Source: an uncultured Lachnospiraceae bacterium (GTDB lineage: Bacteria; Bacillota; Clostridia; Lachnospirales; Lachnospiraceae). Taken from it: a DNA stretch of 20,231 nt. The stretch spans positions 1-20,231 of the forward strand of contig CACZQU010000503.1 of the NCBI GenBank assembly GCA_902783305.1, in the 5' to 3' direction. The notes beneath the pieces were generated by a model. The model was not told the origin of the DNA. It ran no database searches and worked only from the letters and a program-made list of their open reading frames with translations. Of this stretch, positions 1 to 15,413 are shown piece by piece (positions within the stretch are counted from its first letter, which is position 1; each line of letters begins with the position of its first letter). Made by a program: the position numbers and the translations under genes.

Positions 1-322
1 CATCACACATCTGCCGGATTTCGGGGCTTTCCGGTGCCCGGCTCTTAAGAAGGGCCAGGATCATTCTGCGCTCCCGCAGGATTCTTTCACTGTTGGTTTC
101 CACTTCGATTTCGCTGTTTACCGGATATATGCAGGAAACCACGACGCTTTTTCTGCCGCGGTCAGTGATCTCTGCTATGCAGAGCCTGCAGGCGCCCATA
201 CCCTCTTCCTGAGAATCATGGTGACAAAGGGAAGGAATCATGATTCCGTTGCGGCGTGCTATGGTCAGCAGATATTCCCCTTTTTCACAGGTGCATTCTT
301 TACCGTCGATTCTGATGATCAT
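1..322 (-). CDS. NuoG/HymC-type 2Fe-2S protein, N-terminal part (cut by window edge)
   Basis: Partial gene: 107 codons are visible and the frame is still open at base 1. The protein begins MIIRIDGKECTCEKGEYL and carries the 2Fe-2S pattern of NuoG, HymC/HndD and bifurcating formate dehydrogenases: one Cys in PSLCHHD, two in ACRLCIAE, and a fourth in VSCIYPV. The start is secure because its ATG overlaps the TGA of the upstream NuoF-like gene (ATGA), so the two are translationally coupled. It is the sixth visible gene of the AOR operon. It would move electrons to or from the NuoF-like subunit. The missing part decides its identity: a short 2Fe-2S subunit, an FeFe-hydrogenase or a formate dehydrogenase subunit are all possible. 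The position in an AOR operon favours an electron-transfer subunit without its own substrate site, but this is inference. Confidence 0.85.
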   Translation of the reverse strand, partial: MIIRIDGKECTCEKGEYLLTIARRNGIMIPSLCHHDSQEEGMGACRLCIAEITDRGRKSVVVSCIYPVNSEIEVETNSERILRERRMILALLKSRAPESPEIRQMCD

Positions 323-2115
323 GGTTTCTGCCTCCCTTCTGTGCGTACCGCATCGAAGCGGCAAGTCTCAAGGCAGCTTCCACAGGAAATGCATTTTGTG
401 TGGTCGATGCGATGGGGCTGTTTTACCGTTCCGCTGATGGCTCCGGCAGGACAGGACCGTGCGCAGGACGTGCATCCTCTGCAGACCGCAGGATCGATCC
501 GGAATGAGGTCAGCGCTTTACATACTCCGGCAGGACATCGGTGCTCCAGAATATGTGCTTCATATTCATCCCTGAAATACCGGAGGGTGGTCAGCACCGG
601 ATTCGGGGCGGATTTCCCCAGCGCGCAAAGCGAGCAGTCAATCATGGTTTCACTGAGCGATTCCAGAAGACCGAGGTCTTCCATTTTGCCGCGTCCTTCG
701 CAGATATCCGTAAGAATCGCCAGCATCTGCTTGAGGCCTTCGCGGCATGGCGTGCACTTACCGCAGGATTCTCCGCAAAGGAAATTGACATAATATCTGG
801 CGACATCAACCATACAGCTTCTGTCGTCCATGACAATCATGCCGCCCGAACCCATCATGGCACCGTATTCCTTGAGGGTATCAAAATCTACCGGCAGGTC
901 CAGAAGGCTTTCCGGAATGCAGCCTCCCGACGGACCTCCTGTCTGAACCGCTTTGAACGGACGATCCTTCTTGATGCCGCCGCCGATCTCGAAGATCAGG
1001 CTGCGAAGAGTGGTTCCCATAGGAACCTCCACGAGACCGGTACGTTTTACTTTCCCTACCATCGCAAAGACCTTGGTGCCTTTGCTCCTGAGTGTTCCGA
1101 CGGACGCGTAAGCTGCTCCCCCGTGACAGATAATGTATGGCACATTGGCAAGGGTTTCCACATTGTTCAGAACGGTCGGCTTATCCCACAGACCTCTGTG
1201 TACGGAACGGATATATTTTGCCCGCGGTTCACCCACCCGGCCTTCAATGGACTGCATCAGAGCGGTTGACTCGCCGCAGACAAAGGCACCGCCGCCTCTG
1301 ACGACCTCAAGGCGAAGCTTTCTGCCGGTACCACAGATATCGCTGCCGATGAAGCCGGCTTCTTCAGCGTCCTTAAGAGCTCTTTTTACATTTCTGACGG
1401 CCAGGTTATATTCATCTCTGATATACAGATACCCCTGCTCGGCTCCGATCGCCAGGGCGCATATGGCCAGACCTTCGATCACGCTGTGCGGATCGCCTTC
1501 GAGAATGGATCTGTCCATAAAGGCGCCGGGATCCCCTTCGTCCCCGTTGCAGGCGGCATATTTCGGATGATGATCATCATCCAGTGCAGTACGCCACTTA
1601 CGGCCGGTGGGAAAGCCGGCTCCGCCTCGGCCGCGAAGACCCGAAGCATCAATTTCGTCAATGATTTCCTCCGGCGTCATGGACAGGGCTTTCCGGAGAC
1701 CTTCATAACCGCCTGCCGCAATATAATCCTGGATGTCTGCGGGAGCGATCTTTCCGATGTTCCGCAGCGCGATTTTCATCTGAGGAGCATAGAACGGGTT
1801 TTCCTGCTGGCTCTTTACCGCTTTCCCTGCATCATTTTTATACAGAAGCCTTTCGAGAAGCACTCCTTTCTGAACCGTATTTTCGAGGATTTCTTTGACG
1901 TCGGATACTTTGACATGATAATAGGAAACCTCGTCCGGAAGGATTGTGACCAATGGTCCGTTCTCGCAGAACCCGTTGCAGCCGGTCCGTTTGATCTCAC
2001 ACTCGACGCGGACATCCATCCCGCTTCCGGCCAGAAGACGTTCGAATTCATCTGCCACCCTGGCGCTGCCGTTTGCCAGGCAGCCCGTACCGCAGCAAAT
2101 ACGGACAGTTTTCAT
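319..2115 (-). CDS. NuoF/HymB-like NADH:flavin subunit of the AOR complex
   Basis: 598 residues, the usual length for HymB/HndC-type subunits. Domains in order: an N-terminal thioredoxin-like 2Fe-2S domain (CCGTGC near residues 7-12, CNGFC near 45); the FMN and NAD binding NuoF core (GRGGAGFPTG near 163, GDEGDPGAF near 190); an SLBB region; the NuoF C-terminal cluster motif CGESCGKCTPC; and a C-terminal double ferredoxin (CRGCTSCARSC, CISCGSCLETC). Subunits like this are the flavin site of electron-bifurcating hydrogenases and formate dehydrogenases and of the Bfu family. Here the protein would link the AOR to NAD(H) and ferredoxin in the cytoplasm. A GGAGGGG ribosome binding site lies before the ATG, 3 bases after the NuoE-like stop. 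Bifurcation itself is inferred, since sequence alone does not separate it from simple NAD reduction. Confidence 0.93.
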   Translation of the reverse strand: MKTVRICCGTGCLANGSARVADEFERLLAGSGMDVRVECEIKRTGCNGFCENGPLVTILPDEVSYYHVKVSDVKEILENTVQKGVLLERLLYKNDAGKAVKSQQENPFYAPQMKIALRNIGKIAPADIQDYIAAGGYEGLRKALSMTPEEIIDEIDASGLRGRGGAGFPTGRKWRTALDDDHHPKYAACNGDEGDPGAFMDRSILEGDPHSVIEGLAICALAIGAEQGYLYIRDEYNLAVRNVKRALKDAEEAGFIGSDICGTGRKLRLEVVRGGGAFVCGESTALMQSIEGRVGEPRAKYIRSVHRGLWDKPTVLNNVETLANVPYIICHGGAAYASVGTLRSKGTKVFAMVGKVKRTGLVEVPMGTTLRSLIFEIGGGIKKDRPFKAVQTGGPSGGCIPESLLDLPVDFDTLKEYGAMMGSGGMIVMDDRSCMVDVARYYVNFLCGESCGKCTPCREGLKQMLAILTDICEGRGKMEDLGLLESLSETMIDCSLCALGKSAPNPVLTTLRYFRDEYEAHILEHRCPAGVCKALTSFRIDPAVCRGCTSCARSCPAGAISGTVKQPHRIDHTKCISCGSCLETCRFDAVRTEGRQKP

Positions 2116-2118
2116 CGG

Positions 2119-2586
2119 TTACCCCTCCTTCCGATAAGAATCCAGTACTCCGGGAAGCTTTTCCATCGTCATTTTTCCATAATAGGTATCATCGACAACC
2201 ATGACAGGCGCCAGAGCGCAGGAGCCAAGGCAGTTTACCAGCTCGAGACTGAACAGCCCGTCGGGTGTTGTCTCGCCGTCGGCAATGCCGAGTGCTCTCT
2301 TTACTCCCTCGACAAGAGTCATAGAGCCCCGGATGTGACATGCAGTTCCATCACACAGCTTGATAACATGCCGGCCTTTCGGCTTGAGTGACAATGCTTT
2401 ATAGAACGTCGCCATGGAATAGAGGGACGACAGCGGCAGATCCAGGTAGTCCGCCAGTGCCTCCAGCCCTTCCCTGGGGATATACTGGAATTCATGCTGC
2501 AGATCCTGCATGATCGCCAGGCTGTAGTGCTGGTCAGCCGGATATGCCTGCAGGATTTCATTGATTTTCTCTTCTTGAACAGACAA
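2119..2586 (-). CDS. NuoE/HymA-like 2Fe-2S subunit of the AOR complex
   Basis: 155 residues, normal for NuoE/HymA/HndA thioredoxin-like 2Fe-2S proteins. The helical N-terminus includes YIPREGLEALADYLDLP and the ATFYK motif typical of the family. The cluster ligands are the Cys pair in CDGTAC (near residue 79) and the pair in CLGSC (near 118). It partners the NuoF-like subunit encoded 3 bases downstream. The start codon is TTG at 2586, preceded by AAAGGCGGG with about 9 bases spacing; no ATG fits the conserved N-terminus. It lies 21 bases after the moaD-like stop and belongs to the same transcript. Its role is electron transfer next to the FMN site. Confidence 0.92.
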   Translation of the reverse strand: MSVQEEKINEILQAYPADQHYSLAIMQDLQHEFQYIPREGLEALADYLDLPLSSLYSMATFYKALSLKPKGRHVIKLCDGTACHIRGSMTLVEGVKRALGIADGETTPDGLFSLELVNCLGSCALAPVMVVDDTYYGKMTMEKLPGVLDSYRKEG

Positions 2587-2607
2587 TTTTCGATACCCGC
2601 CTTTCTG

Positions 2608-2892
2608 TTAACCACCCGCGACAACAGGGAATACATATACCGTGTCCGTTTCTTTGAGTGCTGTATGGATACCGTCCAGGAACTCGATGCGGCGCCCGTT
2701 CACCAGGACAAAGGATCTGTCCGAAAGCTCATTTCCGTCAGGTGTAAGCAGTTCATCACGGAAGGCGGGGCCGAAACGGCCGGCGATCTGATGACAGAGC
2801 TCATAAACCGTGCCGGCTTTTTCCGGCCACTGCATTTCCTTGCAGCCTGCGAAGCCCTCATCTCTGAAAAAAGCAAAGAATTTCACAATCAT
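2608..2892 (-). CDS. moaD: MoaD-like sulfur carrier (ubiquitin fold), in the AOR operon
   Basis: 94 residues starting MIVKFFAFFRDE and ending in PVVAGG. The C-terminal Gly-Gly is the hallmark of MoaD/ThiS sulfur carriers, where it is adenylated and then turned into a thiocarboxylate that supplies the dithiolene sulfur of molybdopterin. I chose the ATG at 2892 because a GAGG ribosome binding site sits 8-9 bases upstream and the family N-terminus fits; an earlier ATG at 2919 lies inside the edge of a hairpin. The gene lies between the AOR gene and the NuoE-like gene, an arrangement common for AOR-linked MoaD proteins. Its likely activating enzyme is the MoeB/ThiF-like protein at 6324-7025. No MoaE partner is encoded in the window. 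Confidence 0.88.
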   Translation of the reverse strand: MIVKFFAFFRDEGFAGCKEMQWPEKAGTVYELCHQIAGRFGPAFRDELLTPDGNELSDRSFVLVNGRRIEFLDGIHTALKETDTVYVFPVVAGG

Positions 2893-2913
2893 TATTTCAG
2901 ACCTCATCGCATA

Positions 2914-2951
2914 GATCAAATCCGGAAGCGAAACCGCTTCCGGATTTGATC
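2914..2951 (-). promoter_or_regulatory. Perfect 17-bp hairpin between the AOR and moaD-like genes
   Basis: Positions 2914-2930 and 2935-2951 are perfect reverse complements with a 4-base loop (2931-2934). The stem starts 19 bases after the AOR stop codon and ends about 21 bases before the moaD start. No T-run follows in the direction of transcription, so it is not a standard intrinsic terminator. A stabiliser of the 3' end of the worS-aor mRNA part, or a processing site giving unequal subunit levels, is more likely. Structure is seen; function is inferred. Confidence 0.75.
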
Positions 2952-2969
2952 ATATACCGGTAAACAGAC

Positions 2970-4769
2970 TTACAGACCAAGCTGCGCATCCTTCTCACTG
3001 GTGGGGATGCCCTCGGCATCCCATCCCCTGACGGAATAATATTCCTTGAGCATTACCTGCAGCTGGCTGACTTTCCCTTCCGCCGGTCCGGTTTTCAGTT
3101 TTTCTCTCAGCAGACGGGGCGGCAGAGTATCCTTTTCCACACCGGCAACGATATTGAATTTCTTCTCCAGGTTCCAGATCCGTTCTCCCTTGAGCAGGAT
3201 CTCTTCGTCAGGCTCATCCCACCCGCAGGCTTCACGAAGCATGGCGGCAATTTCAGGAAGACCCTGGCCGAAGGTGGTGAACAGACAGATACCGGAGGAA
3301 TCACACAGTGCTGTCAGATCCTGGAAGACCTTAAGGGTGGCAGCCTTGTTTTCTGTTACCAACGGATCCATTGCCATGGGAATGCCAAGCACCTCAGGGG
3401 AGATCATATATCCTCTGACGTGGCATCCGCCTCTGTTGGACGTGGCATAATTGAGACCGATTCCCTGGATGGCACGGGCATCATAGGCAGGCATCTCCTG
3501 CTTCTTTACGGACATCGACAGCTCCGGATGACCATATTTTTCTGCCATGCGGTAAGAACCTGTTCCCAGGATTTTGCCGAAGCCTTCTCCTTTACAGGTC
3601 ATTTCGGTGGCGTCAACCATTGCCTGCGCGTCGCCGAACCTCAGCGGGAAGCCGATTTCTTCTTCTTTGATGCATCCCATTTCAAAGAGCTCCATGGCAC
3701 AGGCAATGGTAGCCCCCATAGTGATCGGATCAAGACCATACTGGTTGCAGAGGAAATTTGCCTTGCATACCGCGCCAAGGTCGCTGACGCCGCAGTCTGC
3801 CCCGAATGACCAGCCGGCCTCGTATTCCGGACCTTCCCCTCTGGATTTGAATGCGCCGGATGCGATATCCACGAGCCTGCCGCATCCGATCGAGCAGCCG
3901 AAGCATCCTTTATTGCGAATGAGATGCTTTGCGGCAAGAGTTTCGCCGGAAATATCGTCCGCCAGGGGGAAGAGCGCTCCGTCACGGCCGTTGTTGACCG
4001 GAAGCCCGCCGACACTGTTGACGATGTTGACAAGGATCATGGTGCCGAGCTGCCCCAGACCGGCTCCTGTAACAGGATGGGCGGCCAGCTTTGCCCTGGC
4101 ATCGGCACAGACCTGGAAGAATTCGTCAGGATGAGCCACCCGGACCGATTTTGTTCCTTTTACGGCGATGGCTTTCAGCTTTTTGGAGCCCATGACGGCA
4201 CCGGTACCGCCTCTGCCCGCCGCACGATGCTTGTCATTCATGACGCCGGCAAAAAGAACACCTTCTTCTGCGGCTTTGGACACGGCGGCTATGCGGAAAT
4301 TCTCACCGCATTCCGCGTAGAGGGCATCTGTCGCCTCGAATACGTCCATCCCCCAGATCGCGGATGCGTCACGCAGCTCCACGACATCATCGTTGATATA
4401 AAGATATACCGGCTTTTCCGAAATGCCTTCAAAGATGATACCGTCGTATCCGGCATATTTGAGCTCCGGTCCGAAATGGCCGCCTGAATTGGAGGCTTCG
4501 ATGGTGCCGGTGAGCGGGGATTTGCAGATGACATTATACCGTCCTGAGGATGTCGCAAAGGTACCCGTCAGGGGGCCTGTCATGAAGATGAGATTATTAT
4601 CATGTCCGAGCGGATCACATTTCGGATCACATTCATCGCAGAAATATTTCGTTCCGAGTCCTCTGGCTCCGACAAAGTCATGAGCGCTTTTATCGTTCAG
4701 AGGTTCTTTGGAGATCTTGCCGGTGTCCAGATTGACCCGGAGAATTGTTCCGATAAATCCGTTATTCAT
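2970..4769 (-). CDS. aor: Tungsten aldehyde:ferredoxin oxidoreductase, large subunit (AOR family)
   Basis: 599 residues, full length for the AOR family. It oxidises aldehydes to carboxylic acids at a tungsto-bispterin site and passes electrons to one 4Fe-4S cluster. The N-terminal domain contains GARGLGTKY and GPLTGT, typical of AOR. Cluster ligands are Cys289, Cys292 and Cys296 (GCFGCSIGC) plus Cys495 in CDSSGIC, close to the spacing known in Pyrococcus furiosus AOR. The two pterin-binding motifs are the GLDPITMG stretch near 345 and DSSGIC near 490. EGPEYE at 312-317 and GGCH near 450 fit active-site regions. The ATG overlaps the stop of the ferredoxin subunit by one base (TAATG), with GGAGAGGAGG just upstream. 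The neighbouring tungstate and pterin genes support tungsten rather than molybdenum. The aldehyde used cannot be told from sequence. Confidence 0.95.
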   Translation of the reverse strand: MNNGFIGTILRVNLDTGKISKEPLNDKSAHDFVGARGLGTKYFCDECDPKCDPLGHDNNLIFMTGPLTGTFATSSGRYNVICKSPLTGTIEASNSGGHFGPELKYAGYDGIIFEGISEKPVYLYINDDVVELRDASAIWGMDVFEATDALYAECGENFRIAAVSKAAEEGVLFAGVMNDKHRAAGRGGTGAVMGSKKLKAIAVKGTKSVRVAHPDEFFQVCADARAKLAAHPVTGAGLGQLGTMILVNIVNSVGGLPVNNGRDGALFPLADDISGETLAAKHLIRNKGCFGCSIGCGRLVDIASGAFKSRGEGPEYEAGWSFGADCGVSDLGAVCKANFLCNQYGLDPITMGATIACAMELFEMGCIKEEEIGFPLRFGDAQAMVDATEMTCKGEGFGKILGTGSYRMAEKYGHPELSMSVKKQEMPAYDARAIQGIGLNYATSNRGGCHVRGYMISPEVLGIPMAMDPLVTENKAATLKVFQDLTALCDSSGICLFTTFGQGLPEIAAMLREACGWDEPDEEILLKGERIWNLEKKFNIVAGVEKDTLPPRLLREKLKTGPAEGKVSQLQVMLKEYYSVRGWDAEGIPTSEKDAQLGL

Positions 4770-5263
4770 TACTGCGCCTCCTCTCCGATAAGATCTCTGT
4801 ATCGAGCGCTTACGGCAGCTCTTTTGTCAGGGATGGCATCTGTTTCCGTATATTCAAGGGCATGTCCCGGACAGTACTTCACACATTTCGGATCTCCTCC
4901 GCAAAGGTCGCACTTGAAGACCTTTCCTGCCAGCGGGTGATAGGAAATGTTGCCGAGGGGACATGCATTCGCGCACATCTTGCAGCCGATGCACTTTTTG
5001 TAGTTAATGACGACGGCATTGTTTTCATCCCGGGTAATGGCGTGGACAGGACAGACCTTCAGACATGAAGGATTTTCACACTGCAGGCACATCATCGGGA
5101 TGGCTACAGCGGCCTTTTCATACTCGAAAACGTGAACATTGGCAAGCTTCGGATTAAATTCGCCAAAGTGCCCGAATGAACACGCCAGTTCACAGGTACG
5201 ACATCCGATACATTTTTCCGGCTTAATTACGATCTGTTTCATATGCTTTCGGGCGTTCATCAT
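4769..5263 (-). CDS. Polyferredoxin subunit of the AOR complex (four 4Fe-4S motifs)
   Basis: 164 residues (160 or fewer if a later ATG is used) with four cysteine sets: CIGCRTCELAC near residues 18-28, CLQCENPSCLKVC near 59, CIGCKMCANAC near 92, and CDLCGGDPKCVKYC near 118. This matches the HycB/AorA/WorS type of four-cluster ferredoxin that sits beside two-subunit AORs. It would wire the AOR cluster to the NuoEF-like module. It is the first gene of the operon. The strong anti-SD match AAGGAGGTGA (5277-5286, minus strand) lies 16 bases from the first ATG at 5263, which is long; a weaker AAGGG at about 8 bases may be the one used. An in-frame TAA just before 5263 limits the start to 5263, 5260 or an ATG seven codons in. 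Confidence 0.93.
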   Translation of the reverse strand: MMNARKHMKQIVIKPEKCIGCRTCELACSFGHFGEFNPKLANVHVFEYEKAAVAIPMMCLQCENPSCLKVCPVHAITRDENNAVVINYKKCIGCKMCANACPLGNISYHPLAGKVFKCDLCGGDPKCVKYCPGHALEYTETDAIPDKRAAVSARYRDLIGEEAQ

Positions 5264-5294
5264 GGATTAATGCCCTTCACCTCCTTCTGGAATA

Positions 5295-5333
5295 CTATGA
5301 CTCCGGAATTGCAGGAGCGTGAAGCGCGGAACA
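5295..5333 (-). repeat. 39-bp dispersed element, copy 1 (AOR operon leader)
   Basis: Read on the minus strand, this stretch matches 17400-17438 (plus strand) at 33 of 39 positions, with no gaps. All six differences are transitions. Both copies lie just upstream of a gene in the same orientation: about 30 bases before the polyferredoxin start here, and about 26 before the radical SAM gene in copy 2. The shared core includes CCGCGCTTC, CGCTCC and GGAGTCAT. Function unknown. Confidence 0.75.
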
Positions 5334-5387
5334 GATATGGTTTCCATATTATCTGTTCGCGCGGATATAGTGGCAGCTCCGCTCCGG
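5303..5387 (-). promoter_or_regulatory. Highly structured 5' leader of the AOR operon (candidate cis-regulatory RNA)
   Basis: In the minus-strand transcript three nested stems can be drawn: an outer CCGGA/TCCGG pair (5383-5387 with 5303-5307), GGAGC/GCTCC (5376-5380 with 5314-5318), and a long inner hairpin of three segments, GCGCG/CGCGC, AACAG/CTGTT and ATATGG/CCATAT, closed by a 3-base loop (5324-5362, with a 1-base and a 3-base bulge). It lies between the predicted transcription start (about 5391) and the ribosome binding site. No T-run follows. The inner palindrome 5335-5349 could also be read as a DNA operator. Stems are seen; a regulatory role is inferred. Confidence 0.5.
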
Positions 5388-5397
5388 GTATTCTTTC

Positions 5398-5485: not shown

Positions 5486-6379
5486 ATGAACATTCAGAAT
5501 CTAAGAATTTTTGCCATTGTTGCCAAGCTTGAGAATGTGACGAAGACCGCCGAGCTCATGCACCTGTCCCAGTCTGCCGTTTCCAAGCACATTCTGGCTC
5601 TGGAAGAGGAATTTGATGTCCGGCTCTTTGACCGGCTTGGGAAAAAACTCGTTTTGAATGATGCCGGGAGGAGATTTCTTTTAAGCTGTGAAAGGATTCT
5701 CGGGGAAACGGACGCTCTGGCCAAGGACCTGAAGGCGGTTTCTTCCGGGAAAGACAATATGGTCAGGATCTGCGCAATGAACATCGATTCGCGGCTGTTT
5801 TCCTGTATGTCCATATTTAAGAATGCTTATTCTGAAGTGGAATTTAGGATTGACACATTGGACGAGAAGGCGCCGCTTCCTGACATCAATGAATTTGACC
5901 TTGTGATCTGTCCGGATGAGATCCGTTTCCGGAAATATAAAGGCTATGATTTCTATCCTGAAAAATACTGCTTCGTGGTGGGAAAAGACAGTCCTCTTGC
6001 GGAAAGAGTTTCGGTTCCGGTCCGGATGATGGACGGTCTGTCTTTTGTATTCCTCCGGTCCGGAACAGGCTATGAATATCCGTTCCATGTCTGTCTGGCT
6101 CAGAATGTCCGGATGGAACACATTCATTGCGTGGATTCCAGGGAGCATCATCTTCAGCTGATTGCGAGCGGTATTGCCGCAGGATTTGTGCCAGAGGGCA
6201 GTGCGTGGATGTATAAAAACGACAAACGGGTCAGGCTTCTGTACCTGACCGATGACAGATTCTCAAGACCGATGAAAGTATGCTTCAAAAGAGAAAAACA
6301 TCTTTCCGAAATGGCAGGAGCGTTTATGGAGCATTTTCTGGAGTATTATCAGCTCCGAAAGGAACAGATTCAAAGCTGA
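5486..6379 (+). CDS. LysR-family transcriptional regulator, divergent from the AOR operon
   Basis: 297 residues, the usual LysR length. The N-terminal winged helix-turn-helix is clear: MNIQNLRIFAIVAKLENVTK, then AELMHLSQSAVSKHI with the recognition helix, and the family signature LEEEFDVRLFDRLGKK. The rest is a substrate-binding-like sensing domain. I chose the ATG at 5486 because the family N-terminus begins there; the frame stays open far upstream, and an in-frame ATG at 5462 would put the start inside the promoter. There is no Shine-Dalgarno sequence before 5486. Its position, divergent from the AOR operon across a shared control region, suggests it controls that operon, perhaps in response to an aldehyde, its acid or tungstate. 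The ligand cannot be told. Its 3' end overlaps the convergent MoeB-like gene by 56 bases. Confidence 0.92.
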   Translation: MNIQNLRIFAIVAKLENVTKTAELMHLSQSAVSKHILALEEEFDVRLFDRLGKKLVLNDAGRRFLLSCERILGETDALAKDLKAVSSGKDNMVRICAMNIDSRLFSCMSIFKNAYSEVEFRIDTLDEKAPLPDINEFDLVICPDEIRFRKYKGYDFYPEKYCFVVGKDSPLAERVSVPVRMMDGLSFVFLRSGTGYEYPFHVCLAQNVRMEHIHCVDSREHHLQLIASGIAAGFVPEGSAWMYKNDKRVRLLYLTDDRFSRPMKVCFKREKHLSEMAGAFMEHFLEYYQLRKEQIQS

Positions 6380-7025
6380 GATCCTTGAGAGAGCCGGTGA
6401 AGAGCTCTGTGTCTTTGGCCAGGGTGTGTCCGCACAGATACCGGACGGCCATGGAAACCTGAAACGCCGCGCATACGGCCGGAGTAAACGGAAGCGAGGT
6501 CTTTGAGGAAGGGGAAGATCCTTCCGGATACAATTGATGCATCATTCCTGAACCCGGTTTCACGAGCATTACCTGAAGATCCCACCCGCAGATCGCGCCG
6601 TGTATCATCGTCAGCCCTGCTTTTGCCGCGGCGTCCTCGAGAAGATGTCTGGTACTGACATTGTCCAGGGCATCCATCACCAGATCCACGTCCGCCAGCA
6701 GCCTTGCCGCGTTTTCCTCTGTAAGGTATTCGGGTACGGCGAGGACATGGACATCCGGATTGATCTGTCTGATCCGCTCTGCCGCAGCCAGCGCTTTGTT
6801 TGTTCCCAGATTGGTTACCTTGCTCAGGAGCTGCCGGTTCAGGTTGGATTCGCAGAACGTATCTCCGTCTGCCACAGTGACTGATCCTACCCCCATACGG
6901 GCAAGGTATTCTATGATGAAACCACCAAGACCTCCGCAGCCCGCGACAAGGACTCTGCTGTGCTTGAGCTTTTCCATATCCTCTGTGCTGACTGCAGGAA
7001 CATTGCGTGAATAGCGTTCTTCCAT
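6324..7025 (-). CDS. MoeB/ThiF/HesA-like adenylyltransferase (MoaD-activating)
   Basis: 233 residues, slightly shorter than E. coli MoeB. The ATP-binding loop is VAGCGGLGGFIIEYLARMGVG (residues about 27-47), followed by the acidic site DGDTFCESNLNRQLL with the conserved SNLNRQ, and the DALDN motif near 117. This is the E1-like fold that adenylates the C-terminal glycine of MoaD/ThiS. The two CxxC zinc-binding pairs of classical MoeB are absent; few cysteines remain in the C-terminal half. A strong AAAGGAGGG site precedes the ATG at 7025. It follows the flavoprotein gene by 25 bases in one operon. By context it activates the MoaD-like protein at 2608-2892; a role with ThiS or another carrier cannot be excluded. 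Its end overlaps lysR by 56 bases. Confidence 0.88.
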   Translation of the reverse strand: MEERYSRNVPAVSTEDMEKLKHSRVLVAGCGGLGGFIIEYLARMGVGSVTVADGDTFCESNLNRQLLSKVTNLGTNKALAAAERIRQINPDVHVLAVPEYLTEENAARLLADVDLVMDALDNVSTRHLLEDAAAKAGLTMIHGAICGWDLQVMLVKPGSGMMHQLYPEGSSPSSKTSLPFTPAVCAAFQVSMAVRYLCGHTLAKDTELFTGSLKDLSFESVPFGADNTPENAP

Positions 7026-7050: not shown

Positions 7051-7974
7051 TCAGGATCCTTTTGCCGCTGCAGCTTTACCCAGGGTATGTCCCAGCCGGA
7101 GTCCTTCCAGGGTAACGCTGTCTACGATCTCGTGGACATGAGCGGCATTGCCGCAAGGGTGGAGCCAGCCGGGAAAGCCCGCTTCCGTCTTGAGAGAATC
7201 TGCTGCTGAAGTCTCAGGTATAAGCCCAAGCGCTGTAACCAGCGTATCGCAGCGGATGATTTCCCTGGTGCCGGTATCCAGATGCTGCAGGGTGACAGCT
7301 TCAAGGCGTGGATATCCGTGCACCTTTGTCACGGTTGCCCTGAGAATCACCGGAATATGATAAGCAGCGATACACTCATCCCGGTTTCGCTTCATCCCTC
7401 CGATGTGATCGTTCTTTTCCACCATGGCGATGACGGTTCTTCCGGTGATCACCAGCCTTCTCGCCACGATCTGGCCGATATCACCGGTCCCGAGGATGAC
7501 GATGTGGTTTCCGATATCATAGTGCCCGAGATTCAGCATTTCCTGAGCTTCTCCCGCAGTATAAATGCCTGTCGGCCTTGAGCCTGATATCTCCAGGGAA
7601 TACAGGTTTTTTTCCCTGCAGCCTGTCGCAAGTACGCATTGTTCAAACAGACAGTGAAACAGTCCTTCCGGGCTGATGATTTCTGCGATCCGGTCCGGCC
7701 GGATTTTTGTGACACGGGCGCGGGAAAGCCAGGATGCGCCCGAGGCAAAGAACCTTTCCGCTTCTTTCCGGCTGTATTCCGGACCCGTCAGATCCTCTTT
7801 GTAGAATCCCCGCCCGAATCCGTTATGAATGCATTGCGGGAGGATACCCCCCAGGTAAGGCCGTTCATCGACCAGAAGCACATTGCTTCCTTCGGCTGCT
7901 GCGCCAGCCGCGGCTGCCATCCCCGCGGCTCCTCCTCCGATAACCAGTATCTGTGTGTAGAGATTGTGTATCAA
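7051..7974 (-). CDS. NAD(P)/FAD-dependent oxidoreductase (pyridine nucleotide-disulfide type)
   Basis: 307 residues from a TTG start at 7974, which has AAGGA 8 bases upstream and gives an N-terminus right before the FAD motif (ILVIGGGAAGMAAAAGA). A frame open to 8145 would leave only 32 bases to the divergent neighbour and adds a non-conserved stretch, so I reject that start. Further features are PYLGGILPQCIHNGFG near residue 48, typical of the flavoprotein that accompanies GlpA-like proteins in Clostridia, a second nucleotide-binding motif VILGTGDIGQIVARR near 155, and a C-terminal CGNAAHVHEIVDSV. Before that, the usual stretch between the ALGLIPE motif and the CGN motif appears shortened. 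It pairs with the divergent GlpA-like protein; the third usual partner, a DUF1667 protein, is not seen. Substrate unknown. Confidence 0.88.
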   Translation of the reverse strand: MIHNLYTQILVIGGGAAGMAAAAGAAAEGSNVLLVDERPYLGGILPQCIHNGFGRGFYKEDLTGPEYSRKEAERFFASGASWLSRARVTKIRPDRIAEIISPEGLFHCLFEQCVLATGCREKNLYSLEISGSRPTGIYTAGEAQEMLNLGHYDIGNHIVILGTGDIGQIVARRLVITGRTVIAMVEKNDHIGGMKRNRDECIAAYHIPVILRATVTKVHGYPRLEAVTLQHLDTGTREIIRCDTLVTALGLIPETSAADSLKTEAGFPGWLHPCGNAAHVHEIVDSVTLEGLRLGHTLGKAAAAKGS

Positions 7975-8063
7975 TGTTTTTTTCCTTGTATATGGTCTGA
8001 ACGATACGATAGAATATGGCTGACCCTTATATTTGTCTGCCCTGACGAAGCGGTGTTCCGGCG

Positions 8064-8090
8064 GAAGCGCTGCATTGCACAAAGCGCTTC
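8064..8090. promoter_or_regulatory. Inverted repeat in the divergent flavoprotein intergenic region
   Basis: GAAGCGCT (8064-8071) and AGCGCTTC (8083-8090) form perfect 8-base arms around 11 bases. The site lies in the 203-base gap (7975-8177) between the two divergently read flavoprotein genes, the only gap where their promoters can lie. It could be a shared operator. No convincing pair of -35/-10 boxes was found in the gap. The plus-strand gene has a clear GGAGGG ribosome binding site. Confidence 0.4.
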
Positions 8091-8177: not shown

Positions 8178-9590
8178 ATGAAAAGAATCGATGTGCTCGT
8201 TATTGGAGCAGGCCTTCTGGGATGCTTTACGGCCAGAAATCTTACAAGATATGAAATGGATGTCCTTGTTCTGGAAAAGGAATGCGATGTATCCAGAGGG
8301 ATTTCCAAAGCCAATACCGGTATCATATACACCGGCTATGACAATAAACCCGGTACATTGAAAAGCAAGCTTTGTATTCAGGCGAATGAGGCATTTGATG
8401 CTCTGACAAGGCAGCTTGGGGTTCCGTTTACACGGCCAGGGTCCTTGCTGATCGGCTTCGGACCGAATGCCGATCAGGTGATACGCCGGAAATATCTTGA
8501 CGGAATGCGGGCTGGTGTCAGGGGAATAGAGCTGTTGACCGGGGATAGGGCAAAAGAGCTTGAACCGGGTATTACTGACGGCATCACATCCGCCATGTAC
8601 TCCCGAAGCACCGGCACTATCAATCCCTGGGAGCTGTGTATAGCTGCATATGAGAATGCCAGGGACAACGGGGCTCAGTTCCGGTTTGACCGTGAGGTAC
8701 GGGCCATCAGAAAAGAAGACGGCCGGTTCCTCGTGGAGACAGATGCGGATCAGTATTCGGCAGCTGCTGTCGTGAATGCTGCAGGACTTTACGCGGACCA
8801 GGTGAGAGAGCTGATCAGGAAGCCTCTTGTGCGTCTTTATCCGACGGCAGCGGACTACATGGTTCTGGATATCAGTGAAAAGGGAAAGATCAATCATATT
8901 ATCTTTCATGAAGGAGAAAACGGGAAAGGACTGACTCTCGTTCCGACGGTGGACGGAAATCTTCTCGCCGGACCGGTGAACCGTGCGCCGGAGGATGGCA
9001 GATTGTCTGCTTCAGGCTTTACGGTCAGCTCTGCCGGTCTTGCGGAGCTTAAGTCACTGATCAGAAGGATTGCCCCGTCCGTCGACCCGGAAAGACAGAT
9101 ACGGGCATTTGGATCCTTACGGCCTAATTTGTACAAAGTCCATGAAGAGTCGGGAAAAATCGTCAGAGAGGAAACCCGGTTCAAGGATTTTTCTCTTCTC
9201 GAGGAAGACGGATTCTTCAGCCTCATCGGGATCAAGACGCCCGGGCTGACTTTTTCCAACGAGCTTGGCAGACTCGCGGCAGACAAGGCGGCAGCGTTTG
9301 CAGGCAGAACAGCGTTGAGAAAAAGCTATAATCCCTGCCGCAATCCGATTGAAAGGACAAGAGAGATGCCAGAGTCGGAGCTGGCTGCAAAAATACAGAA
9401 GGATCCGGGTCGGGGGGAGATCATCTGCGGGTGCATGAATGTCAGCCGATCTGAAATTCTTCAGGCGGTTGCCCGGGGAGCGAGTGACTTCGAAGGAGTC
9501 AGGCGGAGGACCGGAGCCGGTATGGGAAGGTGCCAGGGAAGCCGCTGCAGGAAAAGAATATGGGATTATTGCCATGAAAGATCGTTTTGA
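8178..9590 (+). CDS. GlpA-like FAD-dependent oxidoreductase with C-terminal BFD-type 2Fe-2S domain
   Basis: 470 residues. The N-terminal Rossmann motif (VLVIGAGLLGCFTARNL, residues 6-22) and the SKANTGIIYTGYD segment place it in the DAO superfamily beside anaerobic glycerol-3-phosphate dehydrogenase GlpA and L-2-hydroxyglutarate oxidase. The C-terminus has a BFD-like domain with Cys417, Cys419, Cys452 and Cys457 (CGC and CQGSRC), which should hold a 2Fe-2S cluster. Such proteins oxidise a hydroxy or amino compound and pass electrons to a partner flavoprotein, here probably the divergent 307-residue protein. The start has CGGAGGG just upstream. The last 17 bases overlap moaA, so it heads the tungstopterin operon and is coupled to it. 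The substrate cannot be read from sequence; a compound giving the aldehyde used by the AOR is one guess. Confidence 0.9.
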   Translation: MKRIDVLVIGAGLLGCFTARNLTRYEMDVLVLEKECDVSRGISKANTGIIYTGYDNKPGTLKSKLCIQANEAFDALTRQLGVPFTRPGSLLIGFGPNADQVIRRKYLDGMRAGVRGIELLTGDRAKELEPGITDGITSAMYSRSTGTINPWELCIAAYENARDNGAQFRFDREVRAIRKEDGRFLVETDADQYSAAAVVNAAGLYADQVRELIRKPLVRLYPTAADYMVLDISEKGKINHIIFHEGENGKGLTLVPTVDGNLLAGPVNRAPEDGRLSASGFTVSSAGLAELKSLIRRIAPSVDPERQIRAFGSLRPNLYKVHEESGKIVREETRFKDFSLLEEDGFFSLIGIKTPGLTFSNELGRLAADKAAAFAGRTALRKSYNPCRNPIERTREMPESELAAKIQKDPGRGEIICGCMNVSRSEILQAVARGASDFEGVRRRTGAGMGRCQGSRCRKRIWDYCHERSF

Positions 9591-10539
9591 GCGGGAAATT
9601 GATTACTTAAGAATTTCGATTACCGACCGATGTAATCTGCGGTGCAGGTATTGTATGCCGGAAGGCTGTGACAAGGTTTCCATGAGCCAGATCCTTACGT
9701 ATGAAGAGATCAGGAGAATATGCCGGATTGCGGCCCGTCTGGGGATCAGAAAGATCAGGATTACCGGAGGTGAACCTTTTGTCAGACTCGGCTGCACGGA
9801 CCTGATCAGAACCATAAAACGGACAGAGGGCATCGCGTCAGTCACGGTTACCACTAACGGGCAGAATCTGGTTCAGTACATCGATGAACTGAAAGCTGCG
9901 GGTATTGACGGCATCAACATCAGCCTCGATACCCTTGATCCTGACCGGTATGCTTATATCACCGGCGGAGGATCTCTGGACAAAACTTTACAATCCATTG
10001 ACCTGGCCGTAGAGGCAGGGATTCGTACCAAGGTCAACTGCCTGATTCAGAAGGACTTCAATGAGGATGAAATCTTCCGCCTCGCCGGCTTTGCCTTCCG
10101 GAAGGGTATCGATCTGCGCTTCATTGAGCTGATGCCGATCGGAATCGCGGATCCTTCCCAGGGAATCTCCAATGAATGGATCCTCGGGATGCTGAGGAAA
10201 AACTGGCCTGATCTGGAAAAGGATAACCGGAAACACGGCAGCGGACCGGCAGTCTATTATCTGAGACCGGGAATCCCTGGCGGAATCGGGCTGATCAGCG
10301 CGATTCACAACAGCTTCTGCGCCGGCTGCAACAGAATCAGGCTGACATCGCAGGGACAGATCAAGCCCTGTCTTTGCTATGATGGCGGGATTGATCTGAA
10401 GCCTTATCTGAAGCGGCCGGATCAGGAACTTGAAACCGCACTGAAAGAAGCAATTCTCCAAAAACCGGAGGGGCATTGCTTCACGACGAGACGGTACGGG
10501 TCAGAGGAACACAGACTGATGTCCCAGATCGGAGGATAA
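9574..10539 (+). CDS. moaA: GTP 3',8-cyclase MoaA
   Basis: 321 residues. The radical SAM motif is Cys20, Cys24, Cys27 in DRCNLRCRYCMPEG; the second cluster is Cys249, Cys252 and Cys266 in FCAGCNRIRLTSQGQIKPC, the C-x2-C-x13-C spacing of MoaA. TGGEP and a GG C-terminus (ending MSQIGG) are both present, and the terminal GG is needed for activity in this family. MoaA turns GTP into 3',8-cyclo-GTP, the first step of molybdopterin synthesis. I chose the ATG at 9574 because the family N-terminus (MKDRFEREIDYLRISITDRC) begins there; it overlaps the upstream flavoprotein gene by 17 bases and its ribosome binding site is weak, so translational coupling is likely. The two final Gly codons also serve as the GGAGGA ribosome binding site of the next gene. 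Confidence 0.96.
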   Translation: MKDRFEREIDYLRISITDRCNLRCRYCMPEGCDKVSMSQILTYEEIRRICRIAARLGIRKIRITGGEPFVRLGCTDLIRTIKRTEGIASVTVTTNGQNLVQYIDELKAAGIDGINISLDTLDPDRYAYITGGGSLDKTLQSIDLAVEAGIRTKVNCLIQKDFNEDEIFRLAGFAFRKGIDLRFIELMPIGIADPSQGISNEWILGMLRKNWPDLEKDNRKHGSGPAVYYLRPGIPGGIGLISAIHNSFCAGCNRIRLTSQGQIKPCLCYDGGIDLKPYLKRPDQELETALKEAILQKPEGHCFTTRRYGSEEHRLMSQIGG

Positions 10540-10542
10540 CAG

Positions 10543-11511
10543 ATGAAAAAAAAGGGAAAAGTGATCGCGGTCTGTACCAGTGAAAAAAAAGGGACCGCAA
10601 AAACCGAGGTGCCGTCCATCAGGCTGATTCCCGGTATGGGAATCGAGGGTGACGCCCATGCCGGCCGCTGGCACCGCCAGGTCAGCCTGCTTGCCCTTGA
10701 AAAGATTGAGGCTTTCCGTAAAATGGGAGCAAACGTGAGTTATGGTGCATTCGGAGAGAATATCATTATCGAAGGGTTCGATCTTCGCTCGCTGCCGGTC
10801 GGTACCAGATTCCGGATTGGAGATGTACTTCTGGAAATGACCCAGATCGGCAAGGAATGCCATTCCCATTGCGCGATTTACGCCCAGGTCGGAGACTGTA
10901 TCATGCCGAGGGAGGGCGTCTTCACCGTTGTACTTGAAGGAGGCGGGATAAAAGCCGGAGACGCGGTAGAGATGATCGAAGCAGATCCGGAGAGGCCTTT
11001 TACGGCGGCGTGGATTACCTTGTCAGATAAAGGCGCGGCCGGGGAGCGGGAGGACAGAAGCGGTCCGCTGATCGGGCAGCTTCTTACCGAAGCAGGATAT
11101 GAGGTTGTAGAAGGTCTGCTGCTTCCCGATGGAGTGGAAAAGCTGAAGCAGCAGCTTGTCCGGCTTGCCGATCAAAGACAGGTTAACGTGATATTTACCA
11201 CAGGGGGAACCGGGCTTTCGCCAAGAGATCTTACTCCTGAGGCGACCATAGAGGTCTGTGACCGGATGGCTCCGGGGATTGCAGAGGCAGTAAGGGCATA
11301 TTCGATGACAAAAACGCCTTCGGCCATGCTGTCCAGAGCAGCGGCAGGGATGCGCGGACAGACCCTGATCATCAACCTGCCCGGAAGCCCCAAAGCCGTC
11401 AGGGAATGCCTGGAATTTCTGCTTCCTCCGCTTGAGCACGGACTTGGGATTATGCTTGGTCGGGATGGGGAATGCGCGGGAAATCAGGACGGTACGAAAT
11501 CCGGAGAATAA
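10543..11511 (+). CDS. MOSC domain - MogA/MoaB fusion protein
   Basis: 322 residues with two domains. Residues 1 to about 145 are a MOSC domain (GMGIEGDAHAGRWHRQVSLL; GAFGENI; conserved cysteines in GKECHSHC; VGDCIMPREGVF). MOSC domains handle sulfur or sulfurated metal in molybdenum enzymes. Residues about 150-310 are a MogA/MoaB domain (ITLSDKGAAGEREDRSGP; TTGGTGLSPRDLTPEAT; LPGSPKAVRECL), which adenylates molybdopterin before metal insertion. The fusion is known in Bacillota. Here it sits between moaA (3 bases upstream) and moaC (2 bases downstream), and supplies the only MogA activity in the window. The role of the MOSC half is unknown: a sulfur-transfer or cofactor-carrier function is inference. 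Confidence 0.93.
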   Translation: MKKKGKVIAVCTSEKKGTAKTEVPSIRLIPGMGIEGDAHAGRWHRQVSLLALEKIEAFRKMGANVSYGAFGENIIIEGFDLRSLPVGTRFRIGDVLLEMTQIGKECHSHCAIYAQVGDCIMPREGVFTVVLEGGGIKAGDAVEMIEADPERPFTAAWITLSDKGAAGEREDRSGPLIGQLLTEAGYEVVEGLLLPDGVEKLKQQLVRLADQRQVNVIFTTGGTGLSPRDLTPEATIEVCDRMAPGIAEAVRAYSMTKTPSAMLSRAAAGMRGQTLIINLPGSPKAVRECLEFLLPPLEHGLGIMLGRDGECAGNQDGTKSGE

Positions 11512-11513
11512 TA

Positions 11514-12011
11514 ATGAGCGAATTTACACATTTTGATGAAAAAGGCAATGCCTCCATGGTAGATGTCTCCGAAAAGAAGGTTACCAGAAGAGAGGCTGAG
11601 GCACAGGGAACGATCAGGCTCAGCCGGGAAGCCATGGACGCGGTGATGGGCCGCAGGATAAAAAAGGGAGATGTGTTTACCGTGGCTCAGGTTGCGGGAA
11701 TCATGGGGACTAAGCGTACCGCTGACCTGATCCCCATGTGCCATCCGCTCAGCCTGACTCACGCCATCGTCACTTTTGAAACCGATGAAGAGGCCTGTGA
11801 AATCACCGTCTTGTGCAGGGCGGTGACCGACGGCAGGACAGGTGTCGAGATGGAGGCTCTGACCGGTGTGACCACAGCTCTGCTCACGATCTATGACATG
11901 TGTAAAGCCATAGATAAGCGGATGCTGATCCGTGACATCCATCTTGTGAAAAAATCCGGAGGCAGGAGCGGAGATTTCCGGTATATTCTTCCCGGTTCCG
12001 ACCGGGATTAA
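11514..12011 (+). CDS. moaC: Cyclic pyranopterin monophosphate synthase MoaC
   Basis: 165 residues, normal for MoaC. It converts 3',8-cyclo-GTP made by MoaA into cyclic pyranopterin monophosphate. Family motifs: SMVDVSEKKVTRREA at the N-terminus, AGIMGTKRTADLIPMCHPL near residue 60-80 with the active-site His, VEMEALTGV near 112, and YDMCKAIDK near 128 with the active-site Asp and Lys. The ATG at 11514 follows the upstream stop by 2 bases and has GGAG 9 bases away. A 6-bp stem, CCCGGT/ACCGGG (11991-12006), lies at the very end of the gene just before its stop; no T-run follows, so it is at most an mRNA processing or partial stop signal before tupA. Confidence 0.96.
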   Translation: MSEFTHFDEKGNASMVDVSEKKVTRREAEAQGTIRLSREAMDAVMGRRIKKGDVFTVAQVAGIMGTKRTADLIPMCHPLSLTHAIVTFETDEEACEITVLCRAVTDGRTGVEMEALTGVTTALLTIYDMCKAIDKRMLIRDIHLVKKSGGRSGDFRYILPGSDRD

Positions 12012-12061: not shown

Positions 12062-12898
12062 ATGAAAAAGCTTTGGGTGATGCTGCTTGGTACAGTCATG
12101 ATTCTGACCTCTGCCGTATTTGCCGGCGCTGAGGAAGGCGGCGGGATCTTGATGATGGCAACGACAACAAGCACGGAGGACACAGGACTGCTCGATTATC
12201 TTCAGCCCCTGTTTAAGGAGGATACCGGTATAGACCTTCAGTGGACAGCCGTAGGAACGGGCGAAGCTTTGCGGCTGGGTGAAGACGGACAGGTGGATAT
12301 CGTTCTTGTCCATGCCAGGGCCAGCGAAGAAGAATTTGTCAAAAACGGCTTCGGTGTCGAGCGGTTCCCGGTAATGTACAACGATTTCGTGATCGTGGGA
12401 CCTGCCGAACCGATCGCCAAGACAGATGATGTCGCCGCGGTATTCGAGACGATCCAGAAGGACCAGCTACCTTTCGTGTCGCGCGGAGATGACTCCGGCA
12501 CGGACAAGAAGGAAAAGAAGATCTGGGCAGAGCTGGAGCTTGATCCGTCAGAAAACCCGAATTATATTGAATCCGGACAGGGAATGGGCGCTACGCTTAC
12601 CATTGCCAATGAGAAGGATGCGTACTGCATGACGGACCGTGGAACCTGGCTCAAGCAGTCCATCGATTCCGAAAACGATTATGTGCTTGACATTGTCTGC
12701 GAAGGCGGAAAGCAGCTGCTCAACCAGTACGGCGTCATTGCGGTCAGCCCCGAAAAGTATCCGGACCTCAACAACGATGCGGCCAACGCATTTATTGAGT
12801 GGATCACTTCTGAAAAAGTACAGGAGCTCATTGGGGAATTCGGTGTTGAAGAATATGGCCAGGCCTTGTTTACCCCTGATGCCGGAACCGACAACTGA
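12062..12898 (+). CDS. tupA: Tungstate ABC transporter, substrate-binding protein TupA
   Basis: 278 residues. The N-terminus MKKLWVMLLGTVMILTSAVFA is a signal peptide. The TTTSTEDTGLLDYLQPLF stretch right after it is the hallmark of TupA-type tungstate binders, the TTTS residues being oxyanion ligands. Further family motifs are GTGEALRLGEDGQVDIVLVHA, SRGDDSGTDKKE, and the MTDRGTW segment. It captures tungstate outside the membrane and delivers it to TupB. A strong AAGGAGG lies 7 bases before the ATG. Oddly, no lipobox cysteine is seen at the cleavage site, although monoderm binding proteins are usually lipoproteins. The AOR and pterin genes around it support tungstate rather than molybdate as the cargo; selectivity itself is not provable here. 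Confidence 0.94.
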   Translation: MKKLWVMLLGTVMILTSAVFAGAEEGGGILMMATTTSTEDTGLLDYLQPLFKEDTGIDLQWTAVGTGEALRLGEDGQVDIVLVHARASEEEFVKNGFGVERFPVMYNDFVIVGPAEPIAKTDDVAAVFETIQKDQLPFVSRGDDSGTDKKEKKIWAELELDPSENPNYIESGQGMGATLTIANEKDAYCMTDRGTWLKQSIDSENDYVLDIVCEGGKQLLNQYGVIAVSPEKYPDLNNDAANAFIEWITSEKVQELIGEFGVEEYGQALFTPDAGTDN

Positions 12899-12900
12899 TT

Positions 12901-13584
12901 ATGCTGGAATGGGTAAAAGAGGTTTTTTCCAATCCTGCCGTATTAAGCGCGATCCAGGTCACTTTTATTCTGGCATTCGCCTCCACTTCGGTTTCAGCAG
13001 TGGCCGGGATATCGGCAGGACTCTGGCTTCAGCATCATGAATTCCGGGGAAAACGGGCCGTCATCAGGATTAACCGGACCCTTATGGGGGTTCCTCCTGT
13101 CGTCATCGGACTGCTCGTCTATCTTCTTACCATGCGTGGAGGGCCTCTTGGCCCTCTGTCGCTTCTTTTTACGGTCAAAGGTATGATATTTGCCCAGGTA
13201 CTGATCATAACGCCTGTCATCAGCGGGATGGTCTTTTCCTATGCTGACAGCGCCGTGCCTGCGATCCGGGCATTCGCCAGGACAATGGGCGCGGATAAGC
13301 GGCAGACAAACCGGCTCATCTTAAGCGAGCTGAGAAATGAGCTGTATTTCTGCATCATCGCCGGATTCGGCAGATCAATCAGCGAGGTCGGCTCGGTAAT
13401 GCTCGTCGGAGGAAATATCAAGGGGCATACAAGGACGATGACGACGACGATCTCGCTTCTCAAAAGCCAGGGTATTTATTCCGAAGGAATCGGTCTTGGA
13501 CTGATTCTGCTGGTTATCGCGTTTCTCCTGCAGACGCTTGGCGACCATCTGAGAAAGGAACAGATCCGGGATGAGAATTACTGA
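12901..13584 (+). CDS. tupB: Tungstate ABC transporter, permease TupB
   Basis: 227 residues with about five to six membrane segments (for example AIQVTFILAFASTSVSAVAG near 17, VIGLLVYLLT near 68, FAQVLIITPVISGMVF near 97, LGLILLVIAFLLQ near 200). The EAA-type coupling loop is IRAFARTMGADKRQTNRLILSEL near 125-147, followed by GFGRSISEVGSVMLVGGNI, typical of TupB/WtpB. It forms the membrane channel of the tungstate importer. The ATG lies 2 bases after the tupA stop with no clear ribosome binding site, so translation is probably coupled to tupA. Its end overlaps tupC by 14 bases. Confidence 0.95.
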   Translation: MLEWVKEVFSNPAVLSAIQVTFILAFASTSVSAVAGISAGLWLQHHEFRGKRAVIRINRTLMGVPPVVIGLLVYLLTMRGGPLGPLSLLFTVKGMIFAQVLIITPVISGMVFSYADSAVPAIRAFARTMGADKRQTNRLILSELRNELYFCIIAGFGRSISEVGSVMLVGGNIKGHTRTMTTTISLLKSQGIYSEGIGLGLILLVIAFLLQTLGDHLRKEQIRDENY

Positions 13585-14173
13585 GCTAAGAAAAAAAATC
13601 GGCAGCATGGATCTGTATATCCGGGATCTGGTTATCGAAAAGGGCAGGATTCATGGACTGACAGGGCCTAACGGATGCGGTAAAACCACTTTGCTGAAAA
13701 TCATCATGGGGATTACCGAGCCGGATTCCGGGACAATAGATCTTGAAGGTCTCAGGCCGACGGACATTACCATGACCAGTCAGAGGCCATACCTGATGCA
13801 TGCCAGCGTTTATGACAATATTGTCTATCCACTGAAGCTGAGAGGTGCCCGGATCAACCGGGAGGAGATCGAAGAGCTTATGGAACGGGCCGGGCTTTTG
13901 CCTCTGAAGCAGCAGTATGCAGGCAGTCTTTCCAGTGGGGAGAGGCAGAAGCTGTCGTTTCTGCGCGCTGTCGTGTTCCATCCTTCCATGGTCCTGATTG
14001 ATGAGACCTTCTCCAATCTGGATCCTGAAAGTGAAGCACTCTTTAAGGAGATCATCATCGACCGCCGCAAAACAGACCGGTCCACCTGGCTGATCGTCAG
14101 CCATCAATGGGACCGGATGAATTCCATATTCGAAGAAACGCATTTTATGGAGAAGGGAAGAATCGTGAAATGA
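13571..14173 (+). CDS. tupC: Tungstate ABC transporter, ATPase TupC
   Basis: 200 residues, a compact ABC ATPase as is usual for TupC. Walker A is GPNGCGKTT (about residues 33-41), the Q-loop is TSQRPYLM near 74, the signature is LSSGERQ near 119, Walker B is MVLIDETFSNLDPE near 139, and the switch His is in IVSHQWD near 176. It powers tungstate uptake by TupB. The start overlaps tupB by 14 bases, and the stop overlaps the moeA start (ATGA), so the genes are tightly coupled. No C-terminal regulatory (TOBE) domain is present, unlike ModC. Confidence 0.95.
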   Translation: MRITELRKKIGSMDLYIRDLVIEKGRIHGLTGPNGCGKTTLLKIIMGITEPDSGTIDLEGLRPTDITMTSQRPYLMHASVYDNIVYPLKLRGARINREEIEELMERAGLLPLKQQYAGSLSSGERQKLSFLRAVVFHPSMVLIDETFSNLDPESEALFKEIIIDRRKTDRSTWLIVSHQWDRMNSIFEETHFMEKGRIVK

Positions 14174-15402: not shown

Positions 15403-15413
15403 AGGAGCTGGCT

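Follow-up and report, generated by a model that had tools for sequence, protein, structure and literature searches.

We analysed a 20,231-nucleotide contig (CACZQU010000503.1 of assembly GCA_902783305.1, here C503; the entire contig is referred to as the window) from the metagenome-assembled genome (MAG; 2.99 Mb, 614 contigs, 82% complete, 5.97% contamination) of an uncultured Lachnospiraceae bacterium that probably lives in the gut of an animal, and identified on its minus strand a six-gene operon, S-L-X-C-B-A, that runs from position 5263 down to the contig end. The locus very probably encodes a Class IV, type 1 (S-L-X-C-B-A) tungsten-containing oxidoreductase (WOR) of the Wor-Bfu kind, i.e. 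a bifurcating enzyme with an aldehyde oxidoreductase (AOR) catalytic subunit. This assignment draws on gene content, gene order, cluster ligands and phylogeny; the tungsten, the aldehyde substrate, the assembly of the complex, the electron path and bifurcation itself would be as in published relatives. The six genes are:

4769..5263, minus strand: WorS, polyferredoxin subunit with four [4Fe-4S] motifs; best match in the Protein Data Bank (PDB) 9mqx_E, 5.3e-44
2970..4769, minus strand: WorL, AOR catalytic subunit; best PDB match 9mqx_D, 1.4e-224
2608..2892, minus strand: WorX, MoaD/ThiS-like sulfur carrier ending in Gly-Gly, with a ThiS domain
2119..2586, minus strand: WorC/BfuC, NuoE-like [2Fe-2S] subunit
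319..2115, minus strand: WorB/BfuB, NuoF-like flavin mononucleotide (FMN) subunit with N-terminal [2Fe-2S], B1, B2 and C-terminal 2x[4Fe-4S] clusters
1..322, minus strand: WorA/BfuA, NuoG/HydA-like, truncated by the contig end after 107 N-terminal codons, with a [2Fe-2S] domain

The five Class IV WOR genes, those for WorL, S, A, B and C, thus occur together, WorA being recognized by its N-terminal domain only, and their order is that of Class IV type 1, S-L-C-B-A, in which WorX is optional (PMC13328260). A preliminary description of this DNA, made from the sequence alone, had proposed an AOR operon of these six genes, on this strand and in this order, with the sixth subunit truncated, and both points stand: the domain matches are far above chance by their E-values, which excludes chance open reading frames (ORFs), and WorA ends at the contig boundary with its N-terminal domain only. 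The ATGA junctions or near-zero gaps described there hold for three junctions, S and L overlapping by 1 nt, C and B being separated by 3 nt and B and A overlapping by 4 nt, but not for X, which begins 77 nt past L and ends 21 nt ahead of C. These distances assume the likelier starts of X and A; for WorX, the ORF was listed from a TTG at 2919, the ATG at 2892 being the likelier start. The window contains the sole AFOR_N match of the MAG in a profile search of the genome. A scan of positions 5000-5700 for promoters and terminators yielded 2 promoter-like sites, compared to 1.1 expected, and no terminators.

The bifurcating-type Class IV assignment follows in part from the sequence matches in the PDB, a single entry, 9mqx, being the top match for WorB, WorL, WorS and WorA and the second for WorC, and in part from the contig context, which includes genes for pterin synthesis and for transport of the tungstate type. 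The 9mqx entry contains NuoG-, NuoF- and NuoE-like chains once each and an AOR and an Fe-S subunit three times each. In the cryo-electron microscopy structure of Acetomicrobium mobile WOR1, three WorSL units form nanowires that end in one WorABC plug (PMC13328260), and from this agreement with the chain set, we infer that 9mqx is the A. mobile enzyme.

WorL contains the AFOR_N and AFOR_C domains (Pfam, 1.9e-79 and 6.5e-140, respectively). In the alignment with 1aor, Cys289, Cys292, Cys296 and Cys495 coincide with the [4Fe-4S] ligands, and Glu317 and His450 coincide with E313 and H448 of Pyrococcus furiosus AOR; we assume that these residues have the same roles in WorL. Among PDB sequences, the aldehyde oxidoreductases 9mqx_D, 1aor, 8c0z and 9g7j all match WorL with E-values of 2e-179 or lower, whereas 4z3w_A, a chain of benzoyl-CoA reductase, reaches only 6.5e-53. 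WorS consists of Fer4 domains, with 16 Cys spaced as four 4Fe-4S motifs, the pattern of Class IV WorS. WorX, with a ThiS domain match of 3.6e-9, is, judging by its sequence, a cofactor maturation protein rather than a subunit of the complex.

A BfuBC core containing six Fe-S clusters defines the Bfu enzymes (PMC9304861). WorC has a 2Fe-2S_thioredx domain (6e-48) with Cys78, Cys83, Cys119 and Cys123, the [2Fe-2S] signature of BfuC; its first PDB match is 7t2r_C (5e-43), closely followed by 9mqx_C (1.4e-42), and the top eight matches are all C- or gamma-type chains of bifurcating-type enzymes, with complex I NuoE ranking lower. WorB (best PDB match 9mqx_B, 6.1e-230) combines Complex1_51K (3.3e-43) and NADH_4Fe-4S (9.3e-33) domains with an N-terminal thioredoxin-like 2Fe-2S domain and C-terminal Fer4 domains, in agreement with the extra N-terminal 2Fe-2S and C-terminal 2x4Fe-4S domains noted previously in this subunit, and falls below the curated NCBIfam cut-offs for NuoF.

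In the NiFe enzyme 7t2r_B, the B2 cluster is coordinated by C438, C476, H525, C531 and C536; of 1558 BfuB, only 8 do not have the His, non-bifurcating homologues have neither this residue nor the B2-B5 clusters, and about two thirds of BfuB have Thr at position 476 (PMC9304861). When aligned to 7t2r_B, WorB retains all five ligands (C434, C472, H521, C527 and C532), and the motifs of clusters B1-B5 were all found, including the B2 His. The corresponding residues of E. coli NuoF are N, E, G, L and Q, i.e. none of the ligands. Among 63 B ORFs of 560-700 aa from related loci (including one distant, badly aligned second ORF of locus L078), the B2 His is invariant, as are the Cys at 438 and 536 (63 of 63), and one ORF lacks the Cys at 531 (62 of 63). 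Position 476 (codon 472 in the window) is Cys in 59 of these ORFs, and the others have Arg (2 ORFs), Thr (1) or Leu (1); Thr occupies this position in 9mqx_B and 8a6t_B.

For phylogenetic analysis of the NuoF-like subunit, 26 sequences were used: the window protein, five PDB chains, the HydB-like paralogue of the same MAG, E. coli NuoF and 18 proteins from 18 related loci, chosen among the 63 B ORFs; the badly aligned L078 sequence and loci L005, L015 and L043, for which ORF picking gave no usable B ORF, were omitted. WorB of the window groups with the proteins of loci L002 and L003 (support 100/99), and a clade of WorB, all 18 locus proteins and 9mqx_B is supported at 100/99, with 8a6t_B as its sister (98/98). 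The HydB-like paralogue, encoded on contig C87, falls outside this clade, with 7q4v_B (94/94). The NfnB chain 9n5u_B joins 7t2r_B with weak support (90/72), and E. coli NuoF is on a very long branch, its exact position being unsure. Thus, the PDB matches, the five B2 ligands and the tree support the proposed core identity, a bifurcating tungsten AOR with Bfu-type subunits. In the tree, the NuoF-like subunit joins 9mqx_B, apart from E. coli NuoF, and a grouping with simple NAD-reducing subunits was not seen.

WorA (Fer2_4, 5.9e-15; best PDB match 9mqx_A, 2.4e-19) cannot be completed from C503 because the window spans the whole contig, and a genome search with the full-length WorA of a relative recovered only the window and the HydA-like gene on C87. 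In relatives, WorA has a median length of 248 aa, 70 of 71 proteins being complete, and all 70 complete proteins contain two 4Fe-4S motifs, with eight Cys in total, and, toward the C-terminus, a CxxC...CxxC that is found also in 9mqx_A. Type 2 BfuA comprises A1, A2 and A4, without A3 and A5, and is accompanied by extra catalytic subunits (PMC9304861). The 70 relatives fit this pattern; WorA of the window displays only the [2Fe-2S] domain.

By analogy with the characterized relatives, WorL would oxidize an aldehyde to the acid at a tungstopterin, and electrons would pass from its [4Fe-4S] cluster through the four WorS clusters to WorA and on to the FMN of WorB. There, they would be split, a hydride going to NAD+ (nicotinamide adenine dinucleotide) and two single electrons going via C1, B2, B3 and B4 to ferredoxin. 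Class IV WORs are characterized by the reduction of ferredoxin and NAD(P)+ at the same time (PMC13328260), which would be expected of this complex as well. WorX and ThiF may provide sulfur for the pterin, and TupABC, MoaA, MoaC, MogA and MoeA may be responsible for the supply and insertion of the metal cofactor.

Several observations weigh against bifurcation by this enzyme. The partially purified WOR of Eubacterium limosum, the nearest tested type 1 enzyme, reduced the ferredoxins Fd1 and Fd2 without strict NAD+ dependence, and bifurcation could not be demonstrated, which its authors attribute to low activity (PMC13390469). A 2025 review cautions that, for WOR1, only a distribution of electrons to ferredoxin and NAD+ has been demonstrated so far, with no endergonic step (PMC12096430). 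In addition, WorA is truncated in the window, and the 4Fe-4S motifs of this strain are predicted from those of its relatives. The first two points favour a complex that assembles but is uncoupled, such that NAD+ and ferredoxin (or flavodoxin) are reduced independently, the potential of the aldehyde being low enough for both. We regard this as a minority possibility that has to be taken seriously, given that, against it, A. mobile Wor-Bfu reduced neither NAD+ nor ferredoxin alone (PMC9304861) and that WorB retains all B2 ligands.

The other alternatives are less probable. The NuoE and NuoF folds are common to formate dehydrogenase, complex I and similar enzymes, so that C-B-A could be a non-bifurcating NADH dehydrogenase module serving a simple NAD-reducing AOR. 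However, the B2-B5 motifs and the B2 His of WorB are absent in non-bifurcating homologues (PMC9304861), and this scenario, which we consider extremely improbable, was rejected on the placement of WorB in the tree. A physiological substrate other than an aldehyde, possibly the product of the two flavin adenine dinucleotide (FAD)-dependent enzymes encoded nearby (FAD1 and FAD2), appears improbable as well. The Bam benzoyl-CoA reductases also belong to Class IV (PMC13328260), and FAD1 and FAD2 are retained near the operon in the closest loci, but the similarity of WorL to aldehyde oxidoreductases far exceeds that to 4z3w_A, and BamD- or BamE-like proteins were not detected among the 16 window proteins scanned with Pfam. 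A Class IV WOR of the bifurcating type is the interpretation that we favour.

To assess the spread of the operon, we compared the best 80 of 235 loci obtained in a contig scan with WorL, a set that represents near kin only. The complete ordered S-L-X-C-B-A arrangement was found in 69 of the 80 loci, and in the remaining 11, the only missing genes are those past one edge of the stretch. According to record titles and tree labels, the hosts include Lachnospiraceae, Oscillospiraceae, Anaerovoracaceae, Eubacteriaceae, Clostridiaceae, Coriobacteriia and others. The worX gene lies between L and C in 78 loci (the other two end at L), and its product ends in Gly-Gly in 76 of these 78, the picked ORF being a fragment of few residues in the other two. 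The Class IV type 1 (SLCBA) layout, with WorX between SL and CBA, is in print (PMC13328260, section 11), as is worX together with thiF beside the WOR of Cetobacterium somerae (PMC13328260), and the MoaD-like genes aorD and aorE have been described in Aromatoleum (PMC6365974). The preliminary description took the internal MoaD gene to mark a variant; given the published layout and the documented association of thiF with worX, this feature is not new. The layout of the operon, its internal worX and the proposal of bifurcation have all been published already, and the locus is a good further example; modest leads are the pair of FAD enzymes (FAD1 and FAD2) and the occurrence of Cys or Thr at the B2 ligand position.

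Comparison with individual systems places the locus more precisely. With A. mobile WOR1 (WorABCSL, compared via 9mqx), all five subunits of the window match as best or second PDB sequence, and the motifs, including the C-terminal CxxC...CxxC of the WorA family, are the same; the A. mobile genes, however, have the type 2 order CBASL (PMC13328260), and 9mqx_B has Thr at one B2 ligand position where the window has Cys. E. limosum WOR1 shares the type 1 SLCBA layout (PMC13328260). The locus of Eubacterium callanderi (L050), a near relative of E. limosum, has the S-L-X-C-B-A order, with 71% identity in L and 68% in B, but LysR, ThiF, FAD1 and FAD2 similar to those of the window were not found in its 19.8 kb stretch. 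The Class III enzyme AorABC of Aromatoleum aromaticum resembles the window in the AOR large subunit, the four-cluster small subunit and the MoaD-like maturation genes in the operon, but one FAD subunit serves NAD+ in place of the Bfu module (PMC6365974). The [FeFe]-hydrogenase HydABC (Bfu Type 1) shares the BfuBC core, but its third substrate is H2, via the H cluster in BfuA (PMC9304861), whereas the window has WorSL. A HydCBA-like set is also encoded by the MAG itself, on contig C87 (L088); this second Bfu-type set comprises a NuoE-like, a NuoF-like (best match HydB 7q4v_B) and a truncated HydA-like protein.

Within the genus and the family, the WorL protein is scarce. It occurs at 94% identity in one other genome of the same genus (G134, whose coordinates match those of locus L002, titled Blautia sp. 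RGIG5147). Among 60 genomes sampled from the genus, 2, including that of the window, have an L of 94% identity or more, and three more have an L-like protein at 38-50%. In a sample of 100 genomes of the family, such an L was found only in the genome of the window, the next best match being 50% in one other. The operon is therefore a rare accessory in these groups, and its lateral transfer is likely. The possibility that the contig was mis-binned was rejected on the agreement of its GC content and tetranucleotide composition with the bin, although this agreement is no proof of a native operon. Of 22 contigs sampled for this check, 18 were readable (the four masked contigs read N and yield no value). 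The GC content of the window is 0.527, compared to 0.442-0.548 in the readable contigs, and its tetranucleotide correlation with the contig pool is 0.97; for each readable contig against the rest, this correlation is 0.78-0.94, except for L119 at 0.48.

Beyond position 5263, the window encodes:

5486..6379, plus strand: LysR-type regulator, divergent; ORF listed from 5243, ATG at 5486 likelier
6324..7025, minus strand: ThiF/MoeB-like adenylyltransferase, by family match
7051..8064, minus strand: FAD1, FAD/NAD(P) oxidoreductase (Pyr_redox_2); start uncertain, ORF listed to 8145
8178..9590, plus strand: FAD2, FAD-dependent dehydrogenase (DAO and BFD-like 2Fe-2S), GlpA/GlpO-like
9574..12011, plus strand: pterin cofactor genes MoaA (start inferred), MOSC-MogA fusion and MoaC
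12062..14173, plus strand: ABC transporter, TupABC-like; the Pfam families are silent on the metal
14107..17315, plus strand: two MoeA-type genes, the second fused to PBP_like, the first recognized by its sequence and its clustering with the second

From their sequences, two of the pterin genes are those that we take to be MoaA and MoaC. The MOSC domain is fused to the MogA-type (MoCF_biosynth) domain at 10543-11511, and the MoeA-PBP_like fusion (15393-17315) adjoins the separate MoeA-type gene. ThiF likely activates WorX, and the transporter may take up tungstate. Among 46 loci with long flanks, homologues within 10 kb were found for ThiF in 30, MoeA in 25, the divergent LysR, upstream of the operon, in 23, TupA in 18, MoaA in 16, MogA in 12 and MoaC in 10. 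An enzyme with PF00384 was not found in the 82%-complete genome, and there are two matches to PF02738 (Mo hydroxylase), on G000:C193 and C55. Given these two matches, other enzymes may also depend on the pterin genes, and an exclusive role of the cofactor genes in supplying WOR is not supported. In some related loci, the operon is accompanied by other genes: L005 carries a further AOR-like gene, with 33% identity, next to it, as well as an iron-type alcohol dehydrogenase (14960-16933 and 18593-19798), and E. callanderi L050 likewise has an iron-type alcohol dehydrogenase. The ORF clustering of the loci retained antisense ORFs, and unlabelled clusters were not used, except for this Pfam-confirmed alcohol dehydrogenase.

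FAD1 and FAD2 both occur in 17 of the 42 loci that have at least 8 kb on each side; all 17 are among the 22 loci with L identity greater than 77%, and none is among the 20 with L identity below 74%. In L015, L024 and L036, the pair is located 3' of MoeA on the same strand. No FAD2 orthologues at 1e-90 were found in the other genomes of the 100-genome family sample. FAD2 is probably not the housekeeping glycerol-3-phosphate dehydrogenase of the MAG because a separate GlpA-like gene is present on C342, the contig with the sole DUF1667 match of the MAG, and a third relative on C343. FAD1 was considered as the FAD subunit of a Class III enzyme (WorN/AorC) and rejected, as its PDB matches at 1e-10 or better were limited to two sarcosine oxidase alpha subunits and one thioredoxin reductase. 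Conceivably, although we consider this doubtful, the pair is a dedicated dehydrogenase making the aldehyde for WOR, and the two together would constitute a single catabolic pathway for a substrate not recognised so far, as opposed to general aldehyde detoxification. In the WOR literature consulted, without a literature search aimed at the FAD pair, there is no mention of such a pair beside WOR.

These results place a bifurcating-type tungsten AOR in a genus where this enzyme is rare, and enlarge the type 1 group, whose bifurcation in vitro is still unproven. Should the B2 Cys prove important, enzymes of types 1 and 2 would constitute a natural comparison for this unusual cluster. The conserved FAD-enzyme neighbour could reveal the natural substrate.

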